Below, piece by piece: positions 54,917 to 63,390 of a stretch of DNA of 64,000 bases. Position numbers and translations under genes: made by a program. Origin of the DNA: an uncultured bacterium (GTDB lineage Bacteria; Hydrogenedentota; Hydrogenedentia; Hydrogenedentales; CAILVY01); contig CALEDJ010000020.1 in the NCBI GenBank assembly GCA_937951485.1, forward strand, positions 1-64,000, written 5' to 3'. Each line of letters starts with the position of its first letter. Position 1 is the first letter of the stretch. The notes beneath the pieces were generated by a model. The model made no database searches. It was not told the DNA's origin and was given only the letters and a program-made list of their open reading frames with translations.

Positions 54917-57520
54917 ATGAAGATGACGGAACTGATCCGATACGATGTGCCTGCGGACGTGGTGGCGTTGTGGCGGGAGCGGGAAGGGGAGACGCTGCTG
55001 CCGCTGCAGGAAGTGGCGGTGAAGCGGCACGGGCTGTTCGGGGGGGAGAATCTGCTGATTCAGGCGCCGACCAGTTCGGGCAAGACCTTTATCGGAGAGA
55101 TGGCGGCGATTCAGACGGCGCTGCGCCGCCGGAAGGTGGCGTATCTGGTGCCGCTGAAGGCGCTGGCGGAGGAGAAATACCGGGATTTTCGGGAGAAGTA
55201 CGAGCATTACGGGCTGAAGGTGATTGTGTCGAGCCGGGACCGCCGCGAATATGACCGCGACTTCGAGGCGGGCGACTTCGCGATTGCGGTGGTGGTGTAC
55301 GAGAAACTGGCGCAACTGCTGGTGCGGCGTCCGGAGCGCCTTTCCGAGATTCATCTCGTGATAGCGGACGAATTGGAACTGCTTTCCGATCCGGACCGGG
55401 GGGCGATGGCGGAATTGCTGTTGGCGCGGGTGCTGCGGGCGGGCCGCCGCCTCATCGGGCTTTCGGCGGTGCTGGGCGGCGCGGATCGGCTGGCGGCGTG
55501 GATGAACGCCCGGCTGGTCGCCTACGAGCGGCGCCCGGTGGAACTGCGCTACGGCGTGCTGCACGGCGGCGTGTTCCGCTACCGCGGCTACAACGACGGC
55601 GCAGAGGGCGAGGAGGCGATGGAGGACGCGCCGGGCGAGTCGGCCTGGGAGATTCTCACGCGGAACGTGGCGCGGTTGGCAGAGCGGGGCGAATCGAACC
55701 TGATTTTCGTGAAGGCGAAGCACGAGTCGCGCCGTGGCGCGGAATTGCTGGCGGGCCGGTTGCGGCTTCCGGCGGCGGAACACGCGATCGCGGCACTGCG
55801 CCGGCGCGAGCCGACCCGGTCGCGCGACACGCTCATCGAGACGCTCGGCAGCGGAATCGCCTTCCACAACGCCGATATGTCGCCGGAGGAGCGGGCCATC
55901 GTGGAGCGGGCATTCCGCGAAGGGGAAATCAGGGTGATGGTGTCCACCAGCACGCTGGCGGCGGGGATGAACCTGCCCGCGCGCAACGTGTTCCTCAGCG
56001 CCGAGAAGTGGCGCTACGATCAGCGGCTGGGCATCCCATGGAAAACGCCGCTGCTGCGGGCGGAATACGAGAACATGAGCGGCCGCGCCGGCCGTTACGG
56101 CGCGGGCCACGCCTTCGGGCGCTCCGTGCTCATCGCGACCACGCCGTTCGATCAGGAAACGCTGTGGCGGCGCTATGTGGAGGGCGATCGGGAAGCGGTC
56201 GAGCCGCGCCTGGCGGGAGAATCGCTGGAGAACCATGTGCTGCGCCTGACCGCCTCCCGGTGTTGCCGGACTTCCGAGGAGTTGCTGGATTTCCTGGAGA
56301 GCACGCTCAGCGGGCGCTGGGTCTGGGCGGAGAACTATCCCCTGGACGAGATCGCCTTCAAAATCCGCGCCGCCGTCAACCGCTGCGCCGATGCCGGGGC
56401 GATCCAGATCAACCCGGAGGGCGGGCTGGACGCCACGCCCTTCGGCATGGCGGCGGCGGCGCGGGGCGTGTCCATCACCACGGCGCACGAACTGGCGCAC
56501 TGGATCAGCGAGTCGGAGACGCGGGACTGGATTGACCTGGACCTGCTGTTCGCCGCCGCATCGGTCCCCGACGCGCGGCTGGTGCAGGTGTCGCTGAGCG
56601 CACGCGAATACGAGCGGGCGGACTACCCCGGCCTGCTCAAGCGCGTCACGCGCGACGAGCCGATCGCCGCCGATGTCCCCATGAACCGCATCCGCAACTG
56701 CAACCTGCAGCCCTTTTTCGACGAGGTGCGCGCCATCAAGATCGCCCTGTTCCTCAACGAATGGATCGCGCAGTCGCCGGTGCGCGACATCGAGGATCGC
56801 TACCACACCATGATCGGCCAAATCCTCGCCGCCGCCGACCAGATCAGTTGGATCATTGACGCGACCGCCGCCATCGCCGCCGCGCGCGGCGCGTGCGGCG
56901 CGTTCACGGACCGCATCCGCACGCTGGCTGAGCGGACGCAGCGCGGCCTGCGCGAGGAAATGCTGCCGGCGGCGCGGTCCGGCGCGCCGGGACTTGACCG
57001 TAACGCATTGATCCGGCTGCATGCCCACGGCCTCTGCGACGCCGCCGCCATCGCCGCCGCGCCCCAGGCCGTACTCGCCCAGTGGATGCCCGCCGATACC
57101 GCGCGCGCCCTCAGGGCGTGGGCGCGCCTGGAACACCCCCCCGCGCCGCCGGGACCGCCCGAAGCGCCGCCGGCCGCGCGGATGCCGGCGCTGATCGTGG
57201 ACGACGCCTCCCCCGGCGAGGCGCTGGTGGACGGCGCGCGCGTGCCGCTCCAGGAAAAGCAGTACCGGATGATCCGCGTGCTCGCGGCCAATCCGGGCGT
57301 CTGTGTGCCCTATGACTGTATCTACAAGGCGGTTTGGGGCGACACCGTCGTCGAGGACAACCAGATGCACTTCCAGAAACGTAAACTCGCCGCCGCCATC
57401 GCCGCCGCATCGCCCCGCCGCGACGGGCTGATCAAGACCATTCCCAAACGCGGCTTCATGCTCGACATGCCCCCCGAAGAGGTATTGGTGAAAGCCTTGG
57501 CGGTCGTGCATGCCGCGTGA
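54917..57520 (+). CDS. Ski2-like superfamily 2 helicase with C-terminal OmpR-type winged helix
   Basis: 867 residues. The helicase core has Walker A APTSSGKTF (residues 50-58), a DExx box reading DELE at 151-154 (Hel308 has DEIH), motif III SAV at 183-185, motif V TSTLAAGMNLPA (about 344-355) and motif VI MSGRAGRYG at 387-395. This is the order of Hel308/Ski2 enzymes, which unwind DNA or RNA 3'-to-5'. A helical region follows. The last 105 residues (about 763-867) match an OmpR/PhoB transactivation winged helix (LQEKQYRMIRVLAANPGVCVPYDCIYKAVWG; IKTIPKRGFML). No nuclease domain is seen. It is flanked by 9-bp arrays. Confidence 0.85.
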   Translation: MKMTELIRYDVPADVVALWREREGETLLPLQEVAVKRHGLFGGENLLIQAPTSSGKTFIGEMAAIQTALRRRKVAYLVPLKALAEEKYRDFREKYEHYGLKVIVSSRDRREYDRDFEAGDFAIAVVVYEKLAQLLVRRPERLSEIHLVIADELELLSDPDRGAMAELLLARVLRAGRRLIGLSAVLGGADRLAAWMNARLVAYERRPVELRYGVLHGGVFRYRGYNDGAEGEEAMEDAPGESAWEILTRNVARLAERGESNLIFVKAKHESRRGAELLAGRLRLPAAEHAIAALRRREPTRSRDTLIETLGSGIAFHNADMSPEERAIVERAFREGEIRVMVSTSTLAAGMNLPARNVFLSAEKWRYDQRLGIPWKTPLLRAEYENMSGRAGRYGAGHAFGRSVLIATTPFDQETLWRRYVEGDREAVEPRLAGESLENHVLRLTASRCCRTSEELLDFLESTLSGRWVWAENYPLDEIAFKIRAAVNRCADAGAIQINPEGGLDATPFGMAAAARGVSITTAHELAHWISESETRDWIDLDLLFAAASVPDARLVQVSLSAREYERADYPGLLKRVTRDEPIAADVPMNRIRNCNLQPFFDEVRAIKIALFLNEWIAQSPVRDIEDRYHTMIGQILAAADQISWIIDATAAIAAARGACGAFTDRIRTLAERTQRGLREEMLPAARSGAPGLDRNALIRLHAHGLCDAAAIAAAPQAVLAQWMPADTARALRAWARLEHPPAPPGPPEAPPAARMPALIVDDASPGEALVDGARVPLQEKQYRMIRVLAANPGVCVPYDCIYKAVWGDTVVEDNQMHFQKRKLAAAIAAASPRRDGLIKTIPKRGFMLDMPPEEVLVKALAVVHAA

Positions 57521-57634: not shown

Positions 57635-57755
57635 CGATCCCCGGCATTCCGGGAACTCTTTTCATCCGTCGGTGTTTCACCACACGGAACGCGCCGACAT
57701 CGTCAAACAGCACGAAACACGGCGCAAGTCAACCCAACCTTGGAGGACCTTGAAC

Positions 57756-58475
57756 ATGAGCAGTACACGCCTGCGTATTCTCGCCGCCATCACGATGACC
57801 GTGCTGGCATGGCCCGTTTTCGCCCAACAGCCGCCCCCGCCGCCGGGACCGCCTCCCTTGGACCACCCGAAAGTCCGCGAGATATTCGATAACGCGGACA
57901 AGGACAAGGATGGCAAACTGGATTTCGAGGAATTCAAGGCCGCATTGCAGGCAGGCCGCGAAGTCCTGCGCGAACGCCGCCCGCAGGGTCCGCCGCCTGA
58001 TCGCATGCAACTCCTGGAGCGGCTGCGCGCGGCGGATACGGACGGCGACGGCCGGGTCTCCCTGGAAGAGTTCCGCGCCGCATTCCCCGGTGCGCCGGAA
58101 GCCCGTTTCCGGGAACTTGACCGCAACGCCGACGGCTTCATCAGCCGGGAAGACCTCGTTGACGAGGGTCCCTTGGGACCTCACCCTGAAGCAGGACCGC
58201 ACCCCGGCATCGGACCACGCCCAGAGGGGCAACCGCGCATGCCTTTGCGCGATCGCCTGCACGCCGCCGACCGCGACAGCGACGGCAAGGTGACACTGGA
58301 GGAGTTTCGCGCCGCATTCCCCAACGCGCCGGAAACCCGTTTCAAACAACTTGACACTGACGGTGACGGCGTCATTGACCTGAACAATCTCCCGCCCCGT
58401 CCGCCCAGAGCGCCGCGTGAAGGGGGCGAGGGTCGTCGGCCACGCGAGGGCCGACAGGCGCCCCCCATACAGTAA
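57756..58475 (+). CDS. Exported EF-hand protein
   Basis: 239 residues. A signal peptide (LRILAAITMTVLAWPVFA, ending FAQQ) and a Pro-rich stretch precede five EF-hand-like calcium loops: DNADKDKDGKLDFEEF, AADTDGDGRVSLEEF, LDRNADGFISREDL, AADRDSDGKVTLEEF and LDTDGDGVIDLNNL. They come as pairs separated by Pro/Arg/His-rich linkers. Such proteins bind calcium outside the cytoplasm. A partner is not evident. The start at 57756 is set by GGAGGACC. A strong bidirectional terminator follows. Confidence 0.85.
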   Translation: MSSTRLRILAAITMTVLAWPVFAQQPPPPPGPPPLDHPKVREIFDNADKDKDGKLDFEEFKAALQAGREVLRERRPQGPPPDRMQLLERLRAADTDGDGRVSLEEFRAAFPGAPEARFRELDRNADGFISREDLVDEGPLGPHPEAGPHPGIGPRPEGQPRMPLRDRLHAADRDSDGKVTLEEFRAAFPNAPETRFKQLDTDGDGVIDLNNLPPRPPRAPREGGEGRRPREGRQAPPIQ

Positions 58476-61946: not shown

Positions 61947-62028
61947 TATCAGGGAGGGGCAACAAGAGAGTTTTCACTTCAGATGAAGGATTTGGGATTT
62001 CACCGGCAACCTGAAAGGGATGCATTCC

Positions 62029-63390
62029 ATGATTAGAGGGAAGAGACGGCGACTGCATCCATGCGCAGGAGTCCATTCACGGTTGGCGGCGCGCGTGGAA
62101 GACTTGGAGGCGCAATTGCGCCGCGCGCGGCGCGCCGAGCGGGCGCGGCGCCTGGAAAGCGAACGCCTGAACGAGCAGTTGCAGGTGTTGCAGCGCGCCA
62201 TGGCCACCACTTCTGAAGGCATCACAATCAGCGATGCCCGCCGCGCGGATATGCCGTTGATTTACGTGAATGAGGGTTTCGTCCGGTTGACCGGATATTC
62301 CCGGCAGGAGGTGCTGCACCGGAATTGCCGCTTTCTGCAAGGACCGGATACACCTCCGGAAGAAGTGGACAAAATCCGCGCGGCGCTGAACGAAGGCCGG
62401 CAATATACCGGCGAACTGTTGAACTACCGCAAAGACGGCTCGCCTTTCTGGAACCGCATCTCACTGACGCCGCTGCGAAACAGCCAAGGCAAAGTGACGC
62501 ATTATGTCGGCGTGCAGTCCGACATCACAGAGCGGGTGCAAGCCGAAAAATCCGTCCGTGACGCCCTGACACTCCTGGAATCGGTCAATCAGCAGTTGAC
62601 CGGCGCGAACCGGCGCATGAAGCGCGAACTCGCGGCGGCGGCAAAGATGCAGCAGGCGCTGCTGCCCGACCGGGTTCCGGAAACGCCGACGGTCCGCTTT
62701 CATTGGAAATTGATCCCTTGTGAAGAACTGGCCGGCGACATTCTCAACATATTCCGATTGGATGCGGACCATGTCGGTATCTATCTCCTGGACGTTACAG
62801 GGCATGGCGTGGCGGCGGCATTGCTGGCGGTTTCCGCCAGCAGGATGCTCTCCCCCGTCGGCAATGTGGAGACTCTTCCCTGTGAAGCCAACCATGAGGA
62901 GAGTCACAGTTACCGGTTGCTGGAACCGGCCGAAGTGGCGAACAACCTGAACCGCATTTTTCCCTGGGAGCCGGAATCGGGACAGTTCTTCACCCTGATC
63001 TATGGGGTGCTGAACCTGCGCCGCCTCACCTTCCGTTATGTCTCAGCGGGGCATCCCCCGCCGATTCACCTCAAGGTCTCCGGCGACGCCGTGTTGCCGC
63101 GCGGCAAGGGCCTGCCCATCGGCCTGAGCGAAACACCTTACGAAGAGCAGGTGATTCAAATGACACCGGGCGACCGCCTGTGGATCTATTCCGACGGCGT
63201 CACGGAAACCGCGAACCAGAATCATGAAGCCTTCGGCAATAACCGATTGTTGGACACGCTGCGCAGACAGGCGGAGACCCCGCTGGAGAAAGGAATGGAA
63301 GCGCTACTCGCTGAATTGCGCGCATGGCGCGGCAATCGCCCTCTTGAGGACGATATTTCACTGGTTGCAGTGGACGCCAGGACGGCATAG
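62029..63390 (+). CDS. LOV-domain PP2C (SpoIIE/RsbU-type) phosphatase, putative blue-light sensor
   Basis: 453 residues. After a coiled coil (about 18-57), residues 58-165 form a LOV domain with the flavin-adduct cysteine in the canonical NCRFLQG (Cys100), NYRKDG (Asn132), FWN (Asn142) and the switch Gln in GVQSDIT (Gln163). A second helix (170-210) leads to a PP2C phosphatase (about 205-450) with AGDILNIF, DVTGHGVAAALLA, AGHPPP, LWIYSDGVTET and DDISLVA. RsbU-like phosphatases usually act on anti-sigma-factor antagonists, so light control of a partner-switching sigma cascade is the natural inference. The start at 62029 has AAAGGG at 9 bases. No rsb gene is adjacent. Confidence 0.9.
   Translation: MIRGKRRRLHPCAGVHSRLAARVEDLEAQLRRARRAERARRLESERLNEQLQVLQRAMATTSEGITISDARRADMPLIYVNEGFVRLTGYSRQEVLHRNCRFLQGPDTPPEEVDKIRAALNEGRQYTGELLNYRKDGSPFWNRISLTPLRNSQGKVTHYVGVQSDITERVQAEKSVRDALTLLESVNQQLTGANRRMKRELAAAAKMQQALLPDRVPETPTVRFHWKLIPCEELAGDILNIFRLDADHVGIYLLDVTGHGVAAALLAVSASRMLSPVGNVETLPCEANHEESHSYRLLEPAEVANNLNRIFPWEPESGQFFTLIYGVLNLRRLTFRYVSAGHPPPIHLKVSGDAVLPRGKGLPIGLSETPYEEQVIQMTPGDRLWIYSDGVTETANQNHEAFGNNRLLDTLRRQAETPLEKGMEALLAELRAWRGNRPLEDDISLVAVDARTA

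Follow-up and report, generated by a model that had tools for sequence, protein, structure and literature searches.

The stretch of DNA analysed here (64,000 nucleotides, part of contig C20 and referred to as the window) carries a gene that an earlier note had read as a LOV domain fused to an RsbU-type PP2C phosphatase, which raises the question of what signal this protein would sense in a heterotrophic phylum and on which partner it would act. The ORF was found to be intact, open from 62020 to 63390 on the forward strand and 456 aa in length (residue numbers refer to this ORF; three are subtracted for a start at 62029), and both domains were identified with Pfam, bearing out the proposed fusion (Table 1). 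Judging from the sequence, ATG 62029 is a better start than ATG 62020, since the Shine-Dalgarno-like motif sits 9 nt upstream of the former but abuts the latter. The gene stands alone, with a divergent PsiE-family gene upstream and a convergent XRE-type regulator downstream, and a scan for promoters and terminators found none. Approximately 22 full-length or near full-length homologues were identified within the host phylum, indicating that LOV-PP2C is a conserved gene and not a chance product. Elsewhere in the window, 54917-57520 (+) encodes a DEAD-box helicase whose C-terminus, unusually, carries a winged-helix Trans_reg_C domain, and 57672-58475 (+) a secreted-looking protein with several EF-hand motifs.

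Table 1. Features of the LOV-PP2C locus, with positions in the window.
Feature	Position	Strand	Basis
Shine-Dalgarno-like AAAGGG	62014..62019	+	9 nt before ATG 62029; read from sequence
LOV-PP2C gene	62029..63390	+	ORF, Shine-Dalgarno spacing, Pfam SpoIIE and PAS_9
N-cap helix (residues 16-63)	62065..62208	+	AlphaFold2 model
LOV domain (residues about 56-172)	62185..62535	+	PDB sequence matches over 56-184, Foldseek 9vf7
Adduct cysteine Cys103 codon (RNCRFLQ)	62326..62328	+	Alignment of 27 homologues
Signalling helix / coiled-coil linker (residues 170-213)	62527..62658	+	Model; linker lengths in homologues
RsbU/SpoIIE-type PP2C domain (residues 225-453)	62692..63378	+	PF07228 E 1.2e-43; Foldseek RssB, SiaA, Rv1364c

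The sensor gave a PAS_9 match (Pfam, E 1.5e-25), and LOV domains were identified as its best solved relatives by sequence (PDB sequences, best E 1.6e-39). The NCBIfam YtvA blue-light family matched the LOV part with an E of 6e-43 and a score under the whole-protein cut-off, as expected because the effector differs from that of YtvA. The sequence and fold features of a LOV photoreceptor were found, namely a PAS/LOV fold with the NCRFLQ cysteine, the flavin-contact asparagine pair N135/N145 and the switch glutamine Q166, and the homologue alignment showed N102, C103, N135, N145 and Q166 to be present; the usual glycine of GxNCRFLQ is His100 here, at a position that is also variable among other orthologues. 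The adduct cysteine, the two flavin-contact asparagines and the switch glutamine described as intact in the earlier note were therefore seen, and its prediction of photoactivity is kept as a prediction, every photochemical LOV residue being present; flavin binding and a photocycle would be expected. As a candidate second LOV protein of the host genome, the PAS domain of a 1209-aa ORF on contig C63 was found to have no RFLQ motif. Another possibly light-linked host protein is that of a DNA photolyase-family gene at G000:C43:23729-24190 (L266).

The PP2C core, previously described as complete, was found to be so, with a strong SpoIIE/PP2C profile match and all metal aspartates in place (D240, D258, D392, D444 and D445), the metal aspartates being kept in 27/27 homologues. 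An AlphaFold2 model built on these 27 homologues (mean pLDDT 89.7) places the N-cap helix at residues 16-63, the LOV core at 67-168, an unbroken helix at 170-213 and the PP2C domain at 225-453, and its Foldseek matches were Meiothermus LOV 9vf7 for the sensor and RssB, SiaA and the phosphatase of Rv1364c for the effector. The protein thus has features of the RsbU/SpoIIE type, these being the SpoIIE profile, the metal aspartates and a helical linker to an N-terminal sensor, with a dimer presumed. By analogy with LOV kinases, the N-cap helix is likely to form part of the dimer interface.

Linker length, counted between the conserved DIT-motif aspartate and the first glutamine that is invariant in the phosphatase, took one of four values in 26/27 homologues (43, 36, 29 or 22 residues). 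These values lie multiples of seven apart, and the lone exception is 21. Within the LOV core and where the PP2C domain begins, distances hardly vary, and deeper in the PP2C domain they vary irregularly; the seven-residue periodicity is therefore specific to the linker. This periodicity reads as the signature of a coiled coil held in fixed register and fits signalling through such a coil. The same signature has been reported for LOV histidine kinases (PMC6798134), and it agrees with the activation through the linker that was demonstrated for RsbU and suggested for PAS phosphatases (PMC12143880).

That LOV-PP2C fusions exist in bacteria, as had been remarked, is supported by surveys of prokaryotic LOV proteins, which list LOV-SpoIIE phosphatases of the same architecture, with the SpoIIE/PP2C effector placed after the LOV sensor (PMC4844311). 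The survey lists the type only, and the papers searched described neither a target nor a partner pair nor a series of cysteine losses for it. A close functional likeness is to RsbP (PAS-PP2C) and RsbU of Bacillus subtilis, in which an N-terminal dimeric sensor is joined by a helical linker to a PP2C domain acting on the STAS antagonist of the RsbW kinase. The PAS domain of RsbP is activated by RsbQ and the N-terminal domain of RsbU by RsbT, whereas the sensor here is a LOV domain with an adduct cysteine; by this analogy, LOV-PP2C may work like a light-input version of RsbP/RsbU. YtvA and Lmo0799 (LOV-STAS) likewise feed light into an Rsb-type pathway through a LOV domain (PMC4844311), but their effector is a STAS domain and they operate within the stressosome, ahead of the phosphatase in the pathway, whereas here the phosphatase itself bears the LOV domain. 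The protein design is already known; the testable partner assignment, the phylum-wide co-occurrence and a natural series of light-competent and cysteine-less forms on one scaffold are new.

Candidate partners were sought in the host genome (4.55 Mb, 77 contigs, 94% complete). The earlier note had proposed a search for STAS and RsbW homologues, with their absence counting against its reading, and this search revealed an overlapping rsbW-STAS pair on contig C53, whose kinase (C53:40912-41265) has no stand-alone RsbW-like counterpart at E < 1e-9 elsewhere in the genome. The STAS protein retains the acceptor (phospho-serine) motif YLSS, which is kept in 42/42 STAS proteins of its type. The kinase scored below the cut-offs of both equivalogs tested (28 bits for SpoIIAB, cut-off 135; 23 bits for RsbW, cut-off 145) and passes only the general HATPase_c_2 family. 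No RsbU-type phosphatase other than LOV-PP2C was found in the host genome, which at 94% completeness could be missing another from its assembly; LOV-PP2C is probably the only such phosphatase that feeds a small kinase/antagonist switch in this host. The LOV-PP2C gene was not found adjoining a kinase-STAS pair in the host genome or in any relative examined.

Other candidates were set aside. A second SpoIIE match, on contig C45, is a PrpC-type PP2C_2 adjoining a chloride channel and does not represent a parallel RsbU. The STAS protein of C11 is encoded directly before an ABC-transporter ATPase-like ORF and was judged from its neighbours to be of the transport type. A 655-aa protein encoded upstream of the C53 kinase was rejected as a cytoplasmic partner, having a lipoprotein-like signal and no Pfam match; one relative of it shows a weak DUF3352 match. 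A further STAS gene lies inside the dcw cell-division cluster (L016:1303-1824; G000:C4, mraZ-rsmH interval), and its product is disfavoured as a substrate because it has VSYMGLG in place of a motif with the acceptor serine.

Comparison of 68 genomes of the host phylum, all in one order, showed two main groups of RsbW-like kinase: type I, usually preceded by a phosphatase of its own, and type II, to which the C53 kinase belongs. Judging by the single order of the phylum and by gene content, the host is probably a member of Hydrogenedentota. LOV/PAS-PP2C orthologues, some of them fragments, were identified in 23 of the 68 genomes. Within the 42 genomes that are at least 90% complete, the type II pair was present in 15/15 of those with LOV/PAS-PP2C vs 14/27 of those without (Fisher p = 0.001, a test that, like the others here, ignores shared ancestry and includes some fragmentary genomes), while the type I kinase showed no association (p = 0.74). 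Furthermore, LOV/PAS-PP2C was found in 1/11 genomes where the type II pair has an adjacent phosphatase vs 17/26 where the pair is an orphan (p = 0.003, with adjacency classes set by hand); nine genomes have an orphan type II pair without LOV/PAS-PP2C. In the mixed family f2, LOV/PAS-PP2C and the type II pair occur together in two genera and are jointly missing from four. Fusion of a PP2C domain and an RsbW-like kinase in one frame was observed at L238 (G020), L161 (G005) and G067:C38:54911-56143.

The reading that we favour, and consider somewhat better than an even prospect, is that LOV-PP2C is a dimeric blue-light-regulated Ser/Thr phosphatase with the phosphorylated C53 STAS as its most likely substrate, the latter because LOV-PP2C is the sole RsbU-type phosphatase and the C53 kinase the sole stand-alone RsbW-like kinase (E < 1e-9) found in the host, the acceptor serine is conserved and the genes co-occur. 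Blue light would cause the flavin to form an adduct with Cys103, with protonation of flavin N5 and flipping of Gln166, and the signal would pass by way of the N-cap helix and the unbroken coiled-coil helix (170-213) to alter PP2C pairing through the switch helices and so set phosphatase activity, the direction of the light effect being inferred, like the substrate and the downstream target. The enzyme would act on the phosphorylated STAS of the unlinked pair, which lies outside the window on C53. Once dephosphorylated, this STAS would engage the RsbW-like kinase, which would then release whatever it holds; alternatively, it may serve as the output in its own right, as HmpV and SypA do. Such wiring is minimal, with one RsbU-type phosphatase bearing the LOV domain, one stand-alone kinase and one phosphorylatable STAS, and the question of the LOV-PP2C target is therefore directly testable with three small purified proteins.

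The earlier note had suggested a sigma-factor partner switch as probable. Of this the RsbW-like kinase and STAS pair are present, but a sigma-factor output is not supported as stated, since no SigB, SigF or SigG was detected above the TIGR02980 cut-off in any of the 68 phylum genomes (1/14 control genomes was above it). The Bacillus subtilis RsbP/RsbU system has SigB whereas none was detected in the host phylum, and membership of LOV-PP2C in a SigB system is not shown, since the search for its defining sigma factor came back empty. Of region-3 sigma factors, the host genome showed RpoD, a group-2 RpoD-like factor and FliA/WhiG. A classical switch in which the C53 kinase sequesters FliA/WhiG or the group-2 factor until light releases it is a version of the favoured reading with a defined output, and a possible though doubtful one. 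It draws on Chlamydia, where an RsbW governs the housekeeping sigma factor (PMC8256260), and on the distribution of FliA/WhiG, present in 45/68 genomes and in 35/42 with the type II pair vs 10/26 without (p 2e-4), although this association ignores ancestry. Four genomes of 91-100% completeness (G005, G014, G064 and G067) have the pair with FliA undetected, which sets FliA aside as an obligate target, and no sigma gene was found among the recurrent neighbours of the pair.

These recurrent neighbours are an AraC-type regulator, an exported lipoprotein of approximately 600 aa and, at 10 loci, a UDP-glucose dehydrogenase. The lipoprotein, weakly DUF3352-like, is encoded directly upstream of rsbW-STAS at L102:6803-8767 and at 14 further type II loci. 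Several LOV/PAS-PP2C orthologues adjoin a conserved block comprising pilT, a secreted coiled-coil protein and a 66-aa membrane protein, which was observed at L170, L172, L173, L175 (f7) and L176 (f2), and without pilT at L167 (f6) and L174 (f9). The pilT pair of the host lies on contig C9 (C9:59980-62012; L253, L260) without the LOV/PAS-PP2C gene. Nostoc HmpUVW and Vibrio SypE/SypA are partner switches with a STAS output tied to pilus motility or polysaccharide and with no defined sigma target; neither has been described as taking LOV input, and the output parallel with the host rests only on gene neighbourhoods. By this parallel, the neighbours give a hint of pili or envelope polysaccharide as the output. 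A bolder extension, which we regard as unlikely, is a sigma-independent light-gated switch for surface behaviour (type IV pili, envelope or exopolysaccharide) in a heterotrophic phylum, with relatives having swapped light for another flavin- or ligand-based signal and left linker, phosphatase and target unchanged.

A light-regulated phosphatase may also act on a substrate other than the C53 STAS, such as the mraZ-rsmH STAS or a component of the type IV pili, given that the genome has two free STAS proteins and that the pilT block adjoins the gene in relatives from several families. However, the dcw STAS lacks the acceptor serine, the pilT block is away from the gene in the host genome, co-occurrence favours the C53-type pair, and RsbU-type PP2C phosphatases act on STAS proteins in known systems (PMC11418112); this alternative is accordingly held to be rather improbable.

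The sensor was found to vary among relatives. Reading of the motif state from the alignment of 19 phylum orthologues showed that six, the host protein included, retain NCR[F/L]LQ, that the cysteine is replaced by alanine in seven (SARFIHGP or SARVLHGP) and that the motif is degenerate in the remaining six, one of which still has cysteine at that column. A seventh NCRFLQ copy was identified in G053, where the LOV and PP2C parts lie in different frames. The canonical motif is gone in more than half of the scorable orthologues, and the host protein therefore belongs to a predicted photoactive minority; since orthologues of related families are without the adduct cysteine, light input is a trait of the branch of the host and is not shared by the family as a whole. 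On a tree of the phosphatase part, the motif must change state several times, and the nearest outgroup proteins keep the cysteine; repeated cysteine loss is thus the simpler reading, although the deep branches are weakly supported.

Cysteine-less LOV proteins can still signal, by flavin photoreduction (PMC4682037), which, together with the conserved linker and PP2C domain of the orthologues with SARFIHGP instead of NCRFLQGP or with degenerate motifs, could suggest a vestigial or redox-sensing LOV domain on an RsbP-like phosphatase that answers to energy or redox cues and not to light, but this is very unlikely for the host protein, in which all photochemical residues are kept (hard to explain without selection for photochemistry), as they are in the closest outgroup proteins (L019-L021), and whose genome also encodes the photolyase-family protein. 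Within the phylum, orthologues that have kept the adduct cysteine and others that lack it, with no change in linker length, constitute a natural experiment on the swapping of PAS and LOV sensors over a fixed phosphatase output. Directly before one motif-degenerate PAS-PP2C gene, in G049, an alpha/beta hydrolase gene was observed (L178:5441-6295), an arrangement that recalls RsbQ-RsbP.
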